Below, one piece after another: positions 252-38,851 of a DNA stretch of 64,000 bases. This DNA comes from Bacteroidota bacterium. Its GTDB lineage: Bacteria > Bacteroidota > Bacteroidia > Bacteroidales > FEN-979. Position numbers and translations under genes: made by a program. Every line of letters begins with the position of its first letter. Within the stretch, counting starts at the first letter, position 1. Where the stretch lies: contig JAPLDF010000043.1 of NCBI GenBank assembly GCA_026391835.1, positions 1 through 64,000 on the forward strand. The letters are read 5' to 3'. Below the pieces are notes generated by a model, which was not told the origin of the DNA, did no database searches, and saw only the letters and a program-made list of their open reading frames with translations.

Positions 252-1019
252 ATGATATTGAATAAGAAAATTATCGTTGTACTTCCTGCATATAATGCTG
301 AAAGAACTCTTGAGAATACTTTTCGTGAAATTCCATCGAATATTGTAGATGAAATCATTTTATGCGATGATAAAAGCACCGATGCCACATTAGAGGTTGC
401 AAAATCAATTGGTATTAAACATGTTATCCTTCATGAAAAAAACATGGGATATGGGGCAAATCAGAAATCCTGTTACAAGTTAGCATTGGATTTAAATGCA
501 GATATTGTTATTATGCTTCACCCTGATTTTCAATACACCCCGAAACTAATCCCATCAATGGTCTACCTGATTGCATACGATTTGTATGATGTCGTTCTTG
601 GATCCAGAATATTAAATGGAAAACCAATAAAACAGGGGATGCCTCCATATAAATATATTGCCAACCGGGCTTTAACACTGATACAGAATTTTTTTTTCTG
701 CATAAAATTGTCAGAGTACCATTCAGGTTATAGGGCCTATTCACGTAAAGTTTTACTAAAAATTGACTTTAGGTTCAATGATAACGATTTTGTCTTTGAC
801 AATCAATTCTTATCTCAGGTGATTTTTAAAAAATTCAGGATTGCTGAAATACCTTGTCCAACATCCTATCATGAAAATGCTTCATCCATTGGTTTTTCGA
901 AAAGTGTTGTTTATGGATTGGGCGTCTTGAAAAACTGTATCAAGCACCTTTTACATAAACTTGGAGTTATGGATAATCACATTTACAGGGAGTTGTTGCC
1001 AGCAGAGTCCCAGCCCTGA
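252..1019 (+). CDS. Family 2 glycosyltransferase (polyprenyl-phosphate sugar transferase-like)
   Basis: 255-residue GT-A fold glycosyltransferase of the GT2 / dolichol-phosphate mannosyltransferase-like group. Visible motifs are the N-terminal VVLPAYNAE strand (about 9-17), the nucleotide-binding DD at 39-40 and HPDFQY at 90-95, which stands where most relatives have a DADLQ-type metal motif. Such enzymes move a sugar from a nucleotide donor to a lipid carrier or glycan at the inner face of the cytoplasmic membrane. There is no clear C-terminal membrane anchor, so it is probably soluble or peripheral. It has its own promoter and is convergent with the giant NTPase gene, 15 bases away. The acceptor cannot be read from sequence. 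Confidence 0.85.
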   Translation: MILNKKIIVVLPAYNAERTLENTFREIPSNIVDEIILCDDKSTDATLEVAKSIGIKHVILHEKNMGYGANQKSCYKLALDLNADIVIMLHPDFQYTPKLIPSMVYLIAYDLYDVVLGSRILNGKPIKQGMPPYKYIANRALTLIQNFFFCIKLSEYHSGYRAYSRKVLLKIDFRFNDNDFVFDNQFLSQVIFKKFRIAEIPCPTSYHENASSIGFSKSVVYGLGVLKNCIKHLLHKLGVMDNHIYRELLPAESQP

Positions 1020-1034
1020 TAAATGGCGACTCGT

Positions 1035-4000
1035 TTACTCGTTAGGTATTTCGGCTAGCTGGGTCATACTGTACTTTTCCGCATTAAAAATATCAGACAA
1101 ATGATGATTTCTTTTTAATTTAGAAATTAATCCCCTGATTAATTTATGATTGATTTTAAATCGTTCATTGGCCGCTGAAAAGTGATATTGCCTGTCGTTA
1201 AAGTCGTCATTGTTGAATGACATAAATTCGATCAGGTTTTTATAGGCTTTGCCTTCTGTATGCATTTCTACAGACATATAGAAATTTCTTATGGCTTCGC
1301 TTTTCTGATACCTGGCAGTAATAAAAGGAAGGTTATTTTCCTCAATGAGTTTCCCGAGAGTTTCGCGTATTCTGTCGTTGTTAGCTTTCATACTTGAAAT
1401 ACGCCTAAATTCAATGAATTTCTCCTGCAACTCATCAATTTTCATTTTGAGTGAATCATCATTTATTGAAGAGTTGATTTTTGTTTGGATATACTCGCCG
1501 ATTTTATTCAATTCATCATGAACCTGCGCTCCATTTTTACTCTTGTCAGCTTTGGAAAGAATAAAATGAAATTTCCGATAATAATAATAAATCTGTGACC
1601 AGAATGCCAATTTTTTATGAGTACTTCCAATAAAAGAATAGTTCAGGATGTAGGATACGCTATAGGTATTACAAAGCTTGATTATTTCCTGGAGGCAATA
1701 AATCGAATCAGTAATAATAAATTCTAGGGTTTCAAAAAAGATTTCGAGACTATCTGCCGCTGAGTTTGCTGATTTTTCGTTTAATACATTTATGAAATCC
1801 GAGTATAAACTATTAAATGAGTTTAATTTATCATTCTCACAGGGCAAATCAAGTAAAGAAGAAAAAAAGTCAAATGCAATCATGTCCTCTGATTTTTCAG
1901 CATTAAATAACTTCTTAAATACCTCATAGTTAAGCATTGCTTTGAAACGCAGATTCAACAGCCGGTTAAATACACTTTCATTCAATGAATAGGGTGAAAT
2001 CAGGTTTGCTTTATACAGTTCAATTAGATATTCACGCGATTCGATTTCAGGCAGGCATTTTAATTTAATTTCTTCAAAAACCAGAATTATTTCAGTAATA
2101 TCAACATTTATTGAGGATCTGTTTAGTGAAATATCAGGGCCGGTATTATTAATGCTAAATATGTCTTTATATTTATTGATTTCAAAAAGGTGTATATTTT
2201 CATAGGCATTGTAAATTGCCTTAATGGCCGAATTCACCAGGGAGTCTCTAATATTATCCAGAATACCCATGGTTATGGCATTTTTTAGGTTTTTATCAGT
2301 TGTAAGATTTGTCCTTATCAGGTAAAGTATTTTTGTTAATTGAATAGCATATTTCTTGTGCTCATTTGCTTTTTTGAAGAAAATCGCTGAAAAATAATAG
2401 TTCAGGAATACCAGATCGGTTTTTGAAGGAGGTATTGAGCCGTCACCTGAAAGAATATTCAGTACATTCTCAAAATTGGTTGAACCCTTTGTTTTCGATT
2501 CTTTTAAAGTTTTTATAAACAAAACAAAGAATTCTGTATTGATTGATTGTTCTCCAACACAACAGCTGAAAAATATATCACCCCTGTCGGATAACAGTTT
2601 AGCCAGAATCTTATAGGTTATTGCTTTTGGATCCTGGAACGCCATTTTATCATTTAACCCCCTATTTAATTTTATATAATCAGCTAGATTTGAGTCATCA
2701 ATAGGTTTATCAAAGTCAATAATTTGCTGCAATAAAAGCGATAGTCCTTTGTAATTGAAATAACATGCCCAGCATGAGGGTTTACTCCCTGCCTTGATTA
2801 TCTCCTTAATGGTAGCGCTGCAGTGAATCTGGTGATTGTTGCATCTACAATGGAAATTTCTGATCTGGGTTATCTCCGTGTCAGTGTAATAGCCACTGTT
2901 TTTGCAAATTTCAAGTAGTTGTGATGGGAAGTCAGATTCGATAATTCCATTTTTATAAAATAAAATATCGCTAACCTTTCCATAAAAATCAGCCTGCATT
3001 AAAAATTTCTCTTCACTCTTTACTGCTTTAATTAAAAAGGTAAACTCTTTCTCAAGCCGGAAAATATTTTCTTTGGTTATCCCATCCAGGTGGCTTTTTT
3101 CGAGTATCTGAAATTTTGCCAGGATGGGCTGGTATAACAATTTGATTCCTTCAAAGGATGAAATTTTAAAGATGATATCCTGTATCTGAGGGGTAAGTCG
3201 TCGTGAAATCGTTTGCAGGAAAGTCTTGATTTTGTCATTTTCCTTGAGTTGGTCTGAGTTATTTACATAGCAGATTTCATGGTCGTTATAAGGGTCAAAT
3301 TCTCGTGGTTCAATGTTTTGTTCAAATAATGTTTCTGCTCTGTTGCTGTCTTTTATAATAATTATCCCCCTATTATTTTCTTTTGCAACGAGGGTTTCTT
3401 GCAACCCTATTTCCGAGAGGTTTATATCTCTGTACGAGATAAGCAAACTGGTCAATTCTCCATAAGTAAGGTATGCAGAATCGTACGATTTTCGTTTTTC
3501 ATAGGTATAGCCAAGTTTTAACATATTTCGCACCAGCAGCACCATTAAAGGGACATTCAGATCATTTTTTGGTAAATTCCTAAGGATCTGTAGACTGTCG
3601 AGATATTCAACAACGGCTTCGGTCAACTCTTCATCATAAAAATGGAGATCACCCAGAATCATGTGAATATAGGATATTGAGTTCACATAATTCTGTTTAT
3701 CTACGCCACCCGATGGTTGGTTATACCTGTTTTCTAAAATCACAAGGTATTTCCTGAAATATTGTTTAAGCGAAAGTGATTCATCAAGTGAGAAACTGAA
3801 CGAAGCAGAGGCTCTTTCGGAGGTTTTAGTTAAAAATGAAATTTCATGGGTGATCTTTTTTGAAAACCTGAATTCATGCAGACCACTGATAATCTCTTGA
3901 ATGTGTGTGAGTGAAAGGAATTGCAGAATATCGGTAATGAAATTTCTTAACTCGGTGGGCTTGCTGAAGTCGATCAGTTCAGGAGTAAGTTCAATATTTC

Positions 4001-7000
4001 TCCAAGAAAATGAGTGTTTGTGAAATTTGAAGATCTGGTCCAGTAAAAAGGATGTTGCCACTAGAAGCCGGTCACCATGCTTTTTATTACTGTTGCTGAT
4101 ATTCAATATGATCGGATTTGCAAGATAGTTGATAATCCCAATTGTAAATTGCTCAAAGTAATCAAAGGCAAGGAATGCATTAGAGTTTTTAAACTTTTGA
4201 ACTATAAGTTTTTCATTGTCGGCAAGGCCATTTAGGGATTCATTTTCAATAAAATCTTCAAATAATTTTGTTATTTTCTTAGGGGCGCCATTGCTTGAAT
4301 GGGTTAAATACGTAATAAACTGTTGCAATATTGAGATGATCTTTTCCCGTTTCTGCCGGGCAATTATTTGTTCCTGTTTTGTTTTATTGAATTCATTTTG
4401 TTCATTTAATTCAGGAAATGTAGAGTATAGGTATCTGTTATATTCACTTAAATTGTAAATCCCGTTGCATTTGAAATTATAAGGAAACAAAAACTGGCAA
4501 ACATATTCTTCAGTCATACTTGTTATATCTGAGAAACTAGGATCAGAATCATCAGACAGGAAACTTGGAATGTATATTACATCATGAAAAATACTACCAA
4601 TGAAGTAGTTGCGATCTGAAACATCGGCTAACGATGCATCGTATATTTCCTTGCCAGCGATAAAAATAAATTTAGCCTGGGCTGTTGTTAAAAAATATTT
4701 TAAATTTGACAATAAGCTTAAGATGGCATGTTTACGGTTCCTTGCAGCATCCGGCGAAAAATAATGCGGTGAATTACTGTTAAAAGGTTCCTCCGTATCA
4801 CTATGCAAATTATTCGGCAACGGCTCAATTTTATCCAGTTCGTCAAAAATTATAATTATATCAGGGCGAGTATATACCCTCGGTATTTTTTGTATCATTT
4901 CAAATACCGAGATCAGCCTCTTTTCAATTTCCCTTACATCGGCAATCGGATACGATCTTTCCCGTTTTCTGTTCACAGAAAAATTGAACAGGGTATTTGA
5001 TTTTTCAATTTTGGTGTTCATTCCTTCAGTAATCTGTGCGTTAATCTGTTCTTCTATATTGCTTAATTCTCTGATAACCATACTATGAGTTACTAATCCA
5101 TAGTTGAACAGTTTGAATGACAGTTTAATTAAAAACATTACGAGAAACAGAAAAACAATGAAAGCATAATCAGGATGTATTGGAAAAAATTTATATAGTT
5201 GGGAATTTGTATTGAACGCGAAATTCAAATAATTTATATCTATAAAGTTACCGAAAATCAACAATTTAGATATAATTACAGAAAATTGAAAAATAATGGA
5301 TTTAAGCAATTCAAATATTTTTATAATTATCAGGTCGACAAAATTGAAAATGTTTAATAGGACAGACCTTTTTTCAAGTCTCGAAAATGTCAGGTAATCA
5401 GTCAAAATATTTGCACTATTTGGTTGAATTGTATTGTAAATAACTGATCGGTTACCAGATTTGTTGACTGAAAATATAGCTGTTTTAAGTGTTAAACTAT
5501 CGTCGTTTATTTGATGGTTCTGATTGTTAAATTTCAACAGTTTTTCAATATATTCATCTTTGCCTTTTGTTTTAAGAATATAGGGATATTTTATAGGAGC
5601 ATTCCAACTACTTGCATTTGCAATTTGATTCGATCCCGATAACAGGTTTATTTTAATGGTATCCTGTTGGGCACTTTCACAGGCTTGGTAGATAGCCTTC
5701 ATAACAAAAAAACTGTTGCATATATCCACCGCTGAAGGAGGCAGTTGATGCCGATATGCATCTTCGAAATCAGGTACTAAAATTTTATGGTTATTTGCAA
5801 AATGGATTAACTCATTAATGTCAATTCCCGAATAATTATTTGATATTAGATTATTACTTTTCTTTGAATATAGCCCTATAGTGGATTTGTAATTAGTAAT
5901 ATTATTAGCGTTTGAACTAGCAACCTGCTGCGATGGCAAAGCGAGATAGTAATAAGAATAGGGCGCAAGATATGATCTAACGGAAGTTGAAAAGTAATTG
6001 TAGAAAAGAAAACCGCAGATAAAGTAGAACACTATAATATTAAGCACTTTCCATGTAAAATTTTTTCTTAATGAGGCTTTATGGGCCTTGTATTTTGACA
6101 ATATATTTTTTGTAAGGAGTACAAGGATATCTTTTTCTTTTAGATCATCATGGCCCAAATTAATTTTAATACATATTCTTGAGGAATAATTAAAATATTG
6201 CTGCACTGCTTTTTTAAAGGTTATGAGGAGGTTAGTAAAAAGCCAGTACCATTCCCTTATTGAAGGATGTTTGCGTATATATTGCTTATTTAAATTCTTG
6301 GATTTGAACAGGAAATAAGTGCTGAATGCAATGGTAATGTATAATGAGGGAAATTTTATCCACGATGCACAATAGGCATTGGAGATAGTGGAATGCCTGT
6401 AAAAGATAAAGAAAAAAAAGTAAATGGATGATATAACGGCTAATAGAAATTCAAATATAAAGTAGAATTGGCATTTGATTTCTAAATACCTGATCATTTT
6501 CCGATTTTTTGGTGCAAACACAATTGAACATAAATTCACTATGAGAACTATTAAAATGGGTATAATCGTAATTAAAAAGACCATCATAAAATGTACCTGC
6601 TTCGTTACATGATGTTCTGGTGGATTAACCATTGCTGGAAATTCAATTTTGCAGACTTGGTAAATAACAAAAAATAAAAATATCAAACTAAAATCCTGAC
6701 AAATTGTCGAAAAAATTTGTTTTGCTGATTTATTACTTTTAATAAGAATAAAATCAAAATAAACCGGGAGGTTCTTGAAGAAATTTGAATTCTTCAGCAA
6801 AACATTGTCATTGTTTTTAAAATATAATCTTGAAAAAATGATGAAAAGTGAGAGTGCACAACCAAGGATGATCTCATTCTGTAGCGTATTTTTTAAAAAA
6901 TTATCGATAAAAAAGCAGAGAAGGACAATGAGAAAATAAATTCTCAGATAGCGTGAGAAAATATAAAATGGTTTATGGGCTGAACTTATTTCATCAATAG

Positions 7001-7247
7001 TTTTGGAGACAAAGCTAGATTTGCCGACACCACGTTGTCCAGTAACTAAATATGCCCCCGATTTTGACCCACTATTTGTTAATAAGGCCTGCAACCTCTT
7101 GATCAGCTTTTCCCGACCAATGAAGCGGCTGTCGATATTATCGATCTCTGAGGGACCGTGAAAATAGGAATACCGATGTAATTCAATATAGACTTTTTTG
7201 ATCTTTGAAGAATAATTATGAGACAAGAACTTGGTAAAATCAGCCAT
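1035..7247 (-). CDS. Giant transmembrane P-loop NTPase, KAP/STAND-like, with split ATPase core
   Basis: 2070-residue protein. It starts with a short cytosolic part (RFIGREKLIKRL at 41-52) and Walker A GQRGVGKS at 70-77. About 720 residues follow before Walker B IIIIFDELD at 797-805. That insert has hydrophobic segments near 101-117, 122-140, 185-200, 218-243, 260-282, 300-314, 398-418, 630-665 and 692-712, with a hydrophilic Asn/Ser-rich block at about 420-625 that is probably extracytoplasmic. FIFIAGKE near 860 resembles a sensor strand. Membrane helices between Walker A and B are the hallmark of KAP NTPases, whose bacterial member PifA excludes phage T7. The last 1150 residues are mostly helical, TPR-like, with a Cys/His cluster at 1466-1495. 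It is a lone gene and visibly AT-rich. A defence or signalling role is inferred; the exact family is uncertain. Confidence 0.8.
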   Translation of the reverse strand: MADFTKFLSHNYSSKIKKVYIELHRYSYFHGPSEIDNIDSRFIGREKLIKRLQALLTNSGSKSGAYLVTGQRGVGKSSFVSKTIDEISSAHKPFYIFSRYLRIYFLIVLLCFFIDNFLKNTLQNEIILGCALSLFIIFSRLYFKNNDNVLLKNSNFFKNLPVYFDFILIKSNKSAKQIFSTICQDFSLIFLFFVIYQVCKIEFPAMVNPPEHHVTKQVHFMMVFLITIIPILIVLIVNLCSIVFAPKNRKMIRYLEIKCQFYFIFEFLLAVISSIYFFFFIFYRHSTISNAYCASWIKFPSLYITIAFSTYFLFKSKNLNKQYIRKHPSIREWYWLFTNLLITFKKAVQQYFNYSSRICIKINLGHDDLKEKDILVLLTKNILSKYKAHKASLRKNFTWKVLNIIVFYFICGFLFYNYFSTSVRSYLAPYSYYYLALPSQQVASSNANNITNYKSTIGLYSKKSNNLISNNYSGIDINELIHFANNHKILVPDFEDAYRHQLPPSAVDICNSFFVMKAIYQACESAQQDTIKINLLSGSNQIANASSWNAPIKYPYILKTKGKDEYIEKLLKFNNQNHQINDDSLTLKTAIFSVNKSGNRSVIYNTIQPNSANILTDYLTFSRLEKRSVLLNIFNFVDLIIIKIFELLKSIIFQFSVIISKLLIFGNFIDINYLNFAFNTNSQLYKFFPIHPDYAFIVFLFLVMFLIKLSFKLFNYGLVTHSMVIRELSNIEEQINAQITEGMNTKIEKSNTLFNFSVNRKRERSYPIADVREIEKRLISVFEMIQKIPRVYTRPDIIIIFDELDKIEPLPNNLHSDTEEPFNSNSPHYFSPDAARNRKHAILSLLSNLKYFLTTAQAKFIFIAGKEIYDASLADVSDRNYFIGSIFHDVIYIPSFLSDDSDPSFSDITSMTEEYVCQFLFPYNFKCNGIYNLSEYNRYLYSTFPELNEQNEFNKTKQEQIIARQKREKIISILQQFITYLTHSSNGAPKKITKLFEDFIENESLNGLADNEKLIVQKFKNSNAFLAFDYFEQFTIGIINYLANPIILNISNSNKKHGDRLLVATSFLLDQIFKFHKHSFSWRNIELTPELIDFSKPTELRNFITDILQFLSLTHIQEIISGLHEFRFSKKITHEISFLTKTSERASASFSFSLDESLSLKQYFRKYLVILENRYNQPSGGVDKQNYVNSISYIHMILGDLHFYDEELTEAVVEYLDSLQILRNLPKNDLNVPLMVLLVRNMLKLGYTYEKRKSYDSAYLTYGELTSLLISYRDINLSEIGLQETLVAKENNRGIIIIKDSNRAETLFEQNIEPREFDPYNDHEICYVNNSDQLKENDKIKTFLQTISRRLTPQIQDIIFKISSFEGIKLLYQPILAKFQILEKSHLDGITKENIFRLEKEFTFLIKAVKSEEKFLMQADFYGKVSDILFYKNGIIESDFPSQLLEICKNSGYYTDTEITQIRNFHCRCNNHQIHCSATIKEIIKAGSKPSCWACYFNYKGLSLLLQQIIDFDKPIDDSNLADYIKLNRGLNDKMAFQDPKAITYKILAKLLSDRGDIFFSCCVGEQSINTEFFVLFIKTLKESKTKGSTNFENVLNILSGDGSIPPSKTDLVFLNYYFSAIFFKKANEHKKYAIQLTKILYLIRTNLTTDKNLKNAITMGILDNIRDSLVNSAIKAIYNAYENIHLFEINKYKDIFSINNTGPDISLNRSSINVDITEIILVFEEIKLKCLPEIESREYLIELYKANLISPYSLNESVFNRLLNLRFKAMLNYEVFKKLFNAEKSEDMIAFDFFSSLLDLPCENDKLNSFNSLYSDFINVLNEKSANSAADSLEIFFETLEFIITDSIYCLQEIIKLCNTYSVSYILNYSFIGSTHKKLAFWSQIYYYYRKFHFILSKADKSKNGAQVHDELNKIGEYIQTKINSSINDDSLKMKIDELQEKFIEFRRISSMKANNDRIRETLGKLIEENNLPFITARYQKSEAIRNFYMSVEMHTEGKAYKNLIEFMSFNNDDFNDRQYHFSAANERFKINHKLIRGLISKLKRNHHLSDIFNAEKYSMTQLAEIPNE

Positions 7248-11531: not shown

Positions 11532-11855
11532 TTAATCCACAAAGATTTCTTTAATAATTGATTTGACTTTTTTTATTTCTTTTGCATCAAGTTCTCCGAT
11601 ACTTTTTATAATCCTGGTCAAATCAATGGTTCGGATTTGATCAAGCGCAATCCAATTATCATGCCCTTCGAGTTTAAATTTGACCCTCGTCGGGTAATCC
11701 TTTGACGCGGATGTGACAGGCGCAATGGTTATTGTTCTCAAATGTTTATTCATCTCATTGGGTGAGATGACAATACATGGCCTTGTTTTTCTTATTTCAC
11801 TTCCAACTGTCGGATCCAGGTTGACGATAATAATTTGATATTGTTTTATCTCCAT
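11532..11855 (-). CDS. mazF: MazF/PemK-type endoribonuclease toxin
   Basis: 107-residue toxin of a type II toxin-antitoxin pair. The family motifs are present: an N-terminal strand followed by VGSEIRKTRPCIVIS (about 17-31), the central TIAPVTS strand, and DQIRTIDLTRI (about 73-83). MazF-family toxins cut mRNA at short sequences and stop growth when the labile antitoxin is lost. The start codon lies inside the end of the antitoxin gene (10-bp overlap), so translation is coupled. The RNA target sequence cannot be predicted here. Confidence 0.9.
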   Translation of the reverse strand: MEIKQYQIIIVNLDPTVGSEIRKTRPCIVISPNEMNKHLRTITIAPVTSASKDYPTRVKFKLEGHDNWIALDQIRTIDLTRIIKSIGELDAKEIKKVKSIIKEIFVD

Positions 11856-12091
11856 TCCTCAAGATTTTCGTCGTTAAAGATGTCATCTATCAACAGCCTG
11901 TCATCACCATTTGCAGCCATCTCCTGAAATGATTTGTCCCAGCCTTGCCTTGGGCTTGACACGGGTTTTAAAATAATCCGGCCTTTTTCCAGAACCAATT
12001 CGACTTTATCTTTGATGTCATACTTCTCCAATAGATTTTTTGTCAACCTGATCCCCTTGGAATTCCCGATGTCGATCACTGATATTTGCAT
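11846..12091 (-). CDS. mazE: MazE-type AbrB-fold antitoxin
   Basis: 81-residue antitoxin. The N-terminal half (QISVIDIGNSKGIRLTKNLL) is the swapped-hairpin AbrB/MazE DNA-binding fold, and the acidic, flexible C-terminus is the usual toxin-binding tail. I chose the ATG at 12091 because the AbrB domain starts there; an in-frame ATG at 12112 would add seven residues and overlap the putative operator. The pair is probably self-repressed: a 12-bp palindrome and a -7 box lie directly upstream. Confidence 0.87.
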   Translation of the reverse strand: MQISVIDIGNSKGIRLTKNLLEKYDIKDKVELVLEKGRIILKPVSSPRQGWDKSFQEMAANGDDRLLIDDIFNDENLEEWR

Positions 12092-12113
12092 ACGTTCCGT
12101 GTTTATAATCACA

Positions 12114-38398: not shown

Positions 38399-38851
38399 CT
38401 ATCTGTCCAGGATGATCGGGCTGGTCACATCGCATATCGGCGGGCACGGGCTCAAACCCCTGGCATCGGTATTGATAATCGAATTCCTGACGGCATCTTT
38501 CCCTGTATTGTCCACCCCGACGACAATTCCGACAGTCCTGGAATTATTGTCCCTGCCGAGGTAAATCCTGAAGGCTGTCAGGGCCGTGTTTTCCCTGGCA
38601 ATGAGGTTCATGGCATCCAGCTGTGTTTTGTCGATCGTAAAACCCTTGATGACCTGGTTGAGGGGAACTGCATCCGCCTTGTAATTTTTATAATAGCTGT
38701 TTGCCACGGCCGATGTTATTGGTTCCGGCGGGGAACTTTCCGTGGAAACCTGGGGTGTACTTGAAAATGAAAGCAGGCCGATGATTGAAATTCCCAGCAG
38801 CAAGCCACTTGCGAAGCCTACGGATGTAAAAAAATATTTATTTGTTTTCAT
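38399..38851 (-). CDS. Small membrane-anchored extracytoplasmic protein, function unknown
   Basis: 150 residues. One hydrophobic helix (about 9-30) anchors a Ser/Pro-rich linker and a soluble domain (about 45-150) with FTIDKTQLDAMNLIARENTALTAFRIYLGRDNN and SPCPPICDVTSPIIL near the end, holding two Cys. No known family recognised. A perfect -7 box TATCTTTG lies 46 bases upstream (minus strand, 38897-38904), divergent from the TPR protein gene. Confidence 0.6.
   Translation of the reverse strand: MKTNKYFFTSVGFASGLLLGISIIGLLSFSSTPQVSTESSPPEPITSAVANSYYKNYKADAVPLNQVIKGFTIDKTQLDAMNLIARENTALTAFRIYLGRDNNSRTVGIVVGVDNTGKDAVRNSIINTDARGLSPCPPICDVTSPIILDR

Follow-up and report, generated by a model that had tools for sequence, protein, structure and literature searches.

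A giant Bacteroidota membrane NTPase with two predicted membrane inserts around a conserved element of a KAP-like core

The first 64,000 nt of contig JAPLDF010000043.1 of a Bacteroidota bacterium (assembly GCA_026391835.1; this stretch is hereafter the window, and the genome G000) contain a single open reading frame (ORF) of 2070 residues without internal stop at 1035-7247 of the minus strand, the strand to which all coordinates for parts of its product, the window protein, refer. The gene encodes a giant putative membrane nucleoside triphosphatase (NTPase), whose Walker A and Walker B motifs are separated, as read from the sequence, by two variable membrane inserts flanking a conserved NTPase element, and profile comparison supports placing its P-loop core nearest to the KAP NTPases. 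What appears to be new is the insert site before beta2, on a background of KAP-like membrane NTPases that was already known. KAP NTPases such as Tmn and Kidins220 are important for the exclusion of phages and for signalling in neurons, and the coupling of their membrane segments to the NTPase is left unexplained in the available portions of the sources on both. We consider it somewhat probable that the window protein acts by itself as a KAP-type membrane switch, encoded by one gene and directed against phages or other invading elements.

Seven full-length relatives (1757-2209 residues), all in other Bacteroidota genomes, were aligned with the window protein (alignment A4, eight rows; pairwise identities 24.5-56.5%, region identities below being mean pairwise values). 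Walker A (GQRGVGKS, residues 70-77; 7017..7040) and Walker B (IIIIFDELD, residues 797-805; 4833-4859) are 732 residues apart, and because G.RG.GK[ST] and FDELDK are kept in all eight of these diverged homologues, the motifs are not chance occurrences. A preliminary description of the window, made from its letters alone, had located both motifs at these residues of one 2070-residue ORF, with at least eight hydrophobic segments and a hydrophilic block of about 200 residues between them. These points were borne out by the ORF and motif check and by hydropathy, the sole measure of membrane-like segments used here (19-residue Kyte-Doolittle scan, thresholds 1.4 and 1.6): nine such segments lie between the Walker motifs at either threshold, and residues 419-626 are hydrophilic and free of them. 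The single insert of about 720 residues envisaged in the same description had to be replaced by two, parted in alignment A4 by a conserved element at residues 355-388.

Insert 1 (residues 94-354, 261 residues; 6186..6968) follows a well-conserved N-terminal stretch (residues 10-93, 43.6% identity), is itself conserved at only 15.1% and contains five membrane-like segments, with a sixth helix placed by eye at about residues 298-318; its length varies from 91 to 263 residues across the eight members. The element that follows (6084..6185; predicted beta2 plus helix) returns to 41.8% identity and is nearly constant in length, with 34 residues in the window protein and 32-35 across all eight. Insert 2 (residues 389-725, 337 residues; 5073..6083) has membrane-like segments at 397, 629, 651 and 696, mean identities of 16.5-20.6% in its parts and a length of 64-383 residues across the family, and after it the NTPase resumes with its Walker-B half (residues 726-925; 4473..5072) at 44.0%. 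Both sites appear to be membrane-associated throughout the family, as insert 1 has at least two membrane-like segments in 8/8 members at either threshold, and insert 2 at least two in 8/8 at 1.4 and at least one in 8/8 at 1.6. The hydrophilic block (residues 419-626, 208 residues; 5370..5993) is predicted from charge counts to be extracytoplasmic, and its length ranges from 8 residues in the relative from genome G1118 to 260 in that from G226. Lysine and arginine counts (16 in loop 319-396, 0-2 in the short outer loops, helix ends having been set by eye) would fit cytoplasmic ends. The family is thus graded, from two membrane-like segments per site in the G952 and G1118 relatives to nine segments and a 208-residue outer block in the window protein, and provides a natural test set for membrane-NTPase coupling.

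Kinship of the core was assessed by profile-profile alignment with hhalign, in which figures were read against one reversed and five column-shuffled core controls (probability at most 0.5). Against 25 KAP domains the core reached a probability of 96.1 over Walker A and beta2, where the KAP beta2 signature IKFN.W aligned with element 355-388. The Walker-B half alone (residues 726-1005) gave a modest 21.9, with six controls at most 0.3; here the KAP DDLDR stretch paired with FDELDKIEP and the following strand was also in register. The KAP comparison drawn in the preliminary description stands as regards a KAP-like split P-loop, and was revised as regards insert anatomy, with two sites instead of one. 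Signatures are shared in part: FDELDK takes the place of D[DE]LDR, and the beta2 asparagine is kept while the tryptophan after it is absent. Ordinary Pfam searches were less telling. The window protein gave no KAP match at E ≤ 10, and one of the five members covered by the whole-protein Pfam scan matched KAP (E 0.0053), none over the cut-off. A search with the joined core, inserts removed, had been proposed in the preliminary description; the window protein passed the AAA_16 and KAP cut-offs in this form, but so did controls (4/4 for AAA_16, 3/4 for KAP), and joined cores exceeded 20 bits for KAP in 3/6 cases against 3/4 controls. Since control sequences pass too, this test, whose cut points lie a few residues away from the ones used for hydropathy and hhalign, is void, and we dropped it as proof of KAP kinship. 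Sequence searches of the PDB gave no match, either with the family profile A1 at E ≤ 1 or with a single KAP protein at E ≤ 0.1.

Insert position was then compared with KAP NTPases (PF07693) themselves, using 35 loci that yielded 31 parsed proteins, in 29 of which beta2 was located; of the two others, one has membrane-like segments, and the beta2 match of locus L098 among the 29 is doubtful. No KAP protein (0/29) carried a membrane-like segment before beta2, whereas both sites are filled in 8/8 family members. After beta2, segments were present in 11/29 KAP proteins at threshold 1.6 and 13/29 at 1.4. Because these 29 KAP proteins carry segments only after beta2, insert 2 would correspond to the KAP site and insert 1 would be the extra one. 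The family thus resembles KAP NTPases in its profile match over Walker A, beta2 and Walker B and in the site used by some of them after beta2, and differs in the additional insert before beta2 and in a Walker A-to-B separation of 301-758 residues in the eight members, compared with 111-195 in 25 KAP proteins.

Two other accounts of the core have to be weighed against this kinship. That a STAND-type NTPase, of AAA_16 or NACHT kin and with a TPR tail, acquired membrane inserts without being KAP kin is a possibility that we regard as rather doubtful. It would explain why AAA_16 matched 5/5 members and ranked first among the families matched by the window protein (31.7 bits at residues 41-98, just below the cut-off of 32.6, Pfam recognizing only this first part; nSTAND1 gave 17.5 bits against a cut-off of 27.1), and the family has an NGxPKK motif and, in the window protein, a putative TPR-like tail and an AAA_16-like Walker A region that recall STAND NTPases with TPR tails. 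In hhalign the core also reached 95.4 against 15 AAA_16 proteins, a set that served as the only STAND comparison, without NACHT, NB-ARC or nSTAND profiles, and that is not representative of all STAND proteins because 12 of the 15 look like one subfamily. This match, however, was confined to the Walker A side; the Walker-B half scored 0.1, compared with the 21.9 of the in-register KAP alignment, and membrane inserts inside the NTPase further distinguish the window protein from STAND proteins. The AAA_16 and KAP sets match each other at 96.6. A fusion protein with Walker A and Walker B in separate domains is very improbable in our view. The 732 residues and nine hydrophobic segments between the motifs would suit such an arrangement, and AlphaFold2 did not fold the region (residues 1-1189, three-sequence input, mean per-residue confidence (pLDDT) of 32, too poor to read a fold). 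Against it, once insert 1 is removed, element 355-388 aligns with KAP beta2 directly after the Walker A helix, and in two relatives the motifs are just 301 and 347 residues apart.

Among known proteins, Tmn is characterized, in the part of the source available (PMC11846954), as a phage-inhibiting NTPase of the KAP family that has two unusual transmembrane domains and acts by a mechanism still unexplored. The likeness to the window protein, a KAP-type NTPase with membrane domains, is one of description. As Tmn inhibits phages, a defence role is plausible for the present family, which proves nothing here. In the available portions of the sources on Kidins220/ARMS, four transmembrane segments are flanked by Walker A and B (PMC10707181, PMC4632323), as membrane segments are in the window protein; Kidins220/ARMS differs as an animal scaffold with ankyrin repeats, and was likewise compared, insert sites included, by description only.

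The family is rare and patchily spread. Searching with the window protein, members were found in 3/43 genomes of its taxonomic family (its own included) and in none of 18 other genomes of the genus, and profiles A1 and A2 added five more full-length members (G226, G494, G733, G952 and G1118). Matches were present in 2 of 395 genomes of the phylum, in 3 of 60 relatives of G226 (two members, one remnant), in 7 of 391 genomes from the class to which G494 belongs (three members, a remnant and three weak matches) and in 9 of 393 genomes of the order (four members, one remnant, four weak), these samples overlapping. Weak matches (G716, G730, G762, G820, G413, G920 and G1075; E 2.6e-5 to 8.2e-4) were not counted as members. 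A first scan of genome contigs gave no member, and a second gave two in Bacteroidetes metagenome-assembled genomes labelled LacPavin. Both remnants correspond to the C-terminal part: the one in G490 is a 57-residue frame, and the other, in G1084, is a stretch with an internal stop (158 residues open at L059 9611-10087). Two tyrosine-recombinase-like genes, recognized by eye, lie 7-9 kb from the G1084 remnant.

Base composition adds to this picture. The gene stretch, which lies at the contig start, has a G+C content (GC) of 0.328, compared with 0.484 for the remainder of the window, and in a sliding scan of 116 segments of 6.2 kb each the four poorest in GC all overlap the NTPase gene. Its third-position GC (GC3) is 0.341, and among 31 other listed ORFs only the adjacent family-2 glycosyltransferase-like gene (window 252-1019, assigned by eye) is lower, at 0.324. 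Gene GC is below that of the flanks in 7/8 loci, the exception being G952. Patchiness and gene GC together suggest transfer. The tree, in which the three proteins from the same taxonomic family group weakly (75/88), does not show transfer, and horizontal transfer was not concluded from it. Given the low GC3 of both genes, the contig's first 7.2 kb may have been acquired as one piece. The family was not found described in the literature searched, which does not include most subscription papers.

Defence models are enriched around family members, as families rather than proteins. At E ≤ 1e-10, 40 PADLOC families were matched among 98 neighbour proteins, compared with 5 among 132 control proteins. 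The neighbours came from eight loci (ORFs of fewer than 100 or more than 900 residues and both remnant loci being left out), and the controls from ten regions in nine genomes, each on a contig that also carries a member or a remnant and none from the window's own genome. PycC, PycTM, PD-Lambda-2 A and B, PDC-S01 and PDC-M72A were among the matches listed, which comprise 25 of the 40 families. A Pycsar cyclase, PycC, lies about 5 kb upstream of the G226 relative (L064 3682-5847, E 4.8e-108), and in G020 the family member and a type I restriction fragment are divergently oriented. The defence link anticipated by the preliminary description is thereby supported for the family's neighbourhoods, which carry an excess of defence models over controls, and not for those of the window itself, which look mostly housekeeping-like.

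A further association was observed in G952, where 12 bp after the family member a close-set gene run begins that includes Metallophos, DO-GTPase2, DO-GTPase1 and GAP1-N1 (Pfam). This run covers a large share of the components listed for GAP1-N1 conflict systems in the available part of the published account (PMC7159879). Its GAP1 sections, as far as available, name no such NTPase, and the word KAP is absent from its main text. DO-GTPase1 was over the cut-off in just 1/10 genomes searched, that of G952.

PifA, a KAP NTPase, is relevant to phage exclusion. A conflict or defence role for the present family is, on the combined evidence of kinship and neighbourhoods, fairly probable. Under this reading the NTPase would lie on the cytoplasmic face, and the helical TPR-like tail, perhaps together with the ectodomain, might sense an infection or a damaged envelope. 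The core would then rearrange on binding or hydrolysis of ATP, and the change could reach the membrane because both membrane bundles attach directly to nucleotide-binding elements. The output might be a loss of membrane integrity with growth arrest, or partner effectors might be called in, for example the GAP1/double-GTPase set that accompanies one relative; that the membrane itself is the effector we put forward tentatively. Bolder, and in our estimate unlikely, is a single polypeptide that converts signals across the membrane, its two membrane bundles, placed directly in the catalytic loops of one P-loop domain, mechanically coupling an extracytoplasmic event to the nucleotide state, which would make the family a new class of defence sensor and a possible front end to GAP1-type conflict systems. 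A large protein overlooked by current defence models also joins the list of candidates.

Several observations weigh against a role in conflict. The PADLOC library, which presumably contains a Tmn model, gave no family for the window protein at E ≤ 1, and NCBIfam and PHROGs gave weak matches only, none over an NCBIfam cut-off. Phages and plasmids yielded no relative, nor did a pattern scan of viral contigs, and the grouping of a trio from another class was not rejected in the tree (p-AU 0.22). The neighbour test counts families and not proteins; 11 PycC models match one protein, and because several models match one protein, the excess is smaller at the protein level. Some neighbour families (RtcR, mad3) look generic. 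The GAP1-N1 link exists in 1/8 members, Pfam recognized no GASH protein in the G952 run, neither of the two GTPases nor GAP1 of this run had a PADLOC match, and the window protein's own genome has no DO-GTPase1 match. The window gene's neighbours, being mostly housekeeping-like, say little on its role.

The protein might instead be a membrane signalling or envelope-maintenance NTPase, concerned for example with surface polysaccharide or envelope stress, that is patchily distributed and has no part in defence, an explanation to which we assign a low probability. The adjacent glycosyltransferase-like gene that shares the low GC3 of the NTPase gene would suit it, as would an MBOAT-like gene (by eye) 18 bp after the G1118 relative and the large, variable outer block. 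A maintenance function of this kind is opposed by the greater frequency of defence models near members than in control regions, and by the lack of a conserved partner: an all-against-all comparison of five full-length and one remnant loci (the three later-found members lay outside both this comparison and the whole-protein Pfam scan) gave the NTPase, a few weak generic matches and no shared partner gene. We therefore retain the conflict switch as the preferred explanation.

Downstream of the Walker-B half, the protein continues with further conserved regions. An NGAPKK motif (residues 977-1001; 4245..4319), with N986, G987, P989 and K991 invariant in 8/8 members, is taken by us, on analogy, to be lid/sensor-2-like. 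The most conserved block (residues 1022-1160; 3768..4184) has 51.0% mean identity and 138-139 residues in all eight, and by its position may be winged-helix-like. Putative TPR-like helical repeats were placed by eye at residues 1187-1290 (3378..3689; 41.9% identity); TPR_1 and TPR_2 matched 1/5 members scanned (TPR_1 E 0.0033, match position not given), and an AlphaFold2 model of residues 1022-1420 was too poor to use (three-sequence input, mean pLDDT 42), with helix pairs at about 60 near these repeats. Residues 1100-2070 gave no Pfam match over the cut-off. Within the C-terminal region (residues 1291-2070; 1038..3377), C1492, C1495 and C1562 are invariant in 8/8 members and belong to a cysteine cluster (residues 1448-1563; window 2559-2906) that may be a metal site.

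Minor observations concern the loci. The Pycsar cyclase gene near the G226 relative adjoins one that encodes a small membrane protein, which is probably the effector of the cyclase. The G733 relative is followed directly (L062 234-5035) by a membrane protein that weakly matches a trypsin-like family (E 0.0015, under the cut-off) and then by an exported-looking protein of 860 residues without Pfam match. Near the G020 relative, L017 18484-19248 holds a HigB/HigA-like pair (by eye), perhaps the source of the PD-Lambda-2 A and B matches. In the window itself, a PemK/MazF toxin gene (11532-12112) lies 4.3 kb from the NTPase gene and overlaps a MazE-like antitoxin gene, identified by eye, and another neighbour encodes a GH13-like enzyme (by eye). 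Finally, short proteins encoded at window 38399-38851 and at L012 2303-2815, in two genomes, have a similar N-terminus by eye (MKTNKYF..VGF..G), and each gene is divergent to a larger one whose products also look alike at the start.

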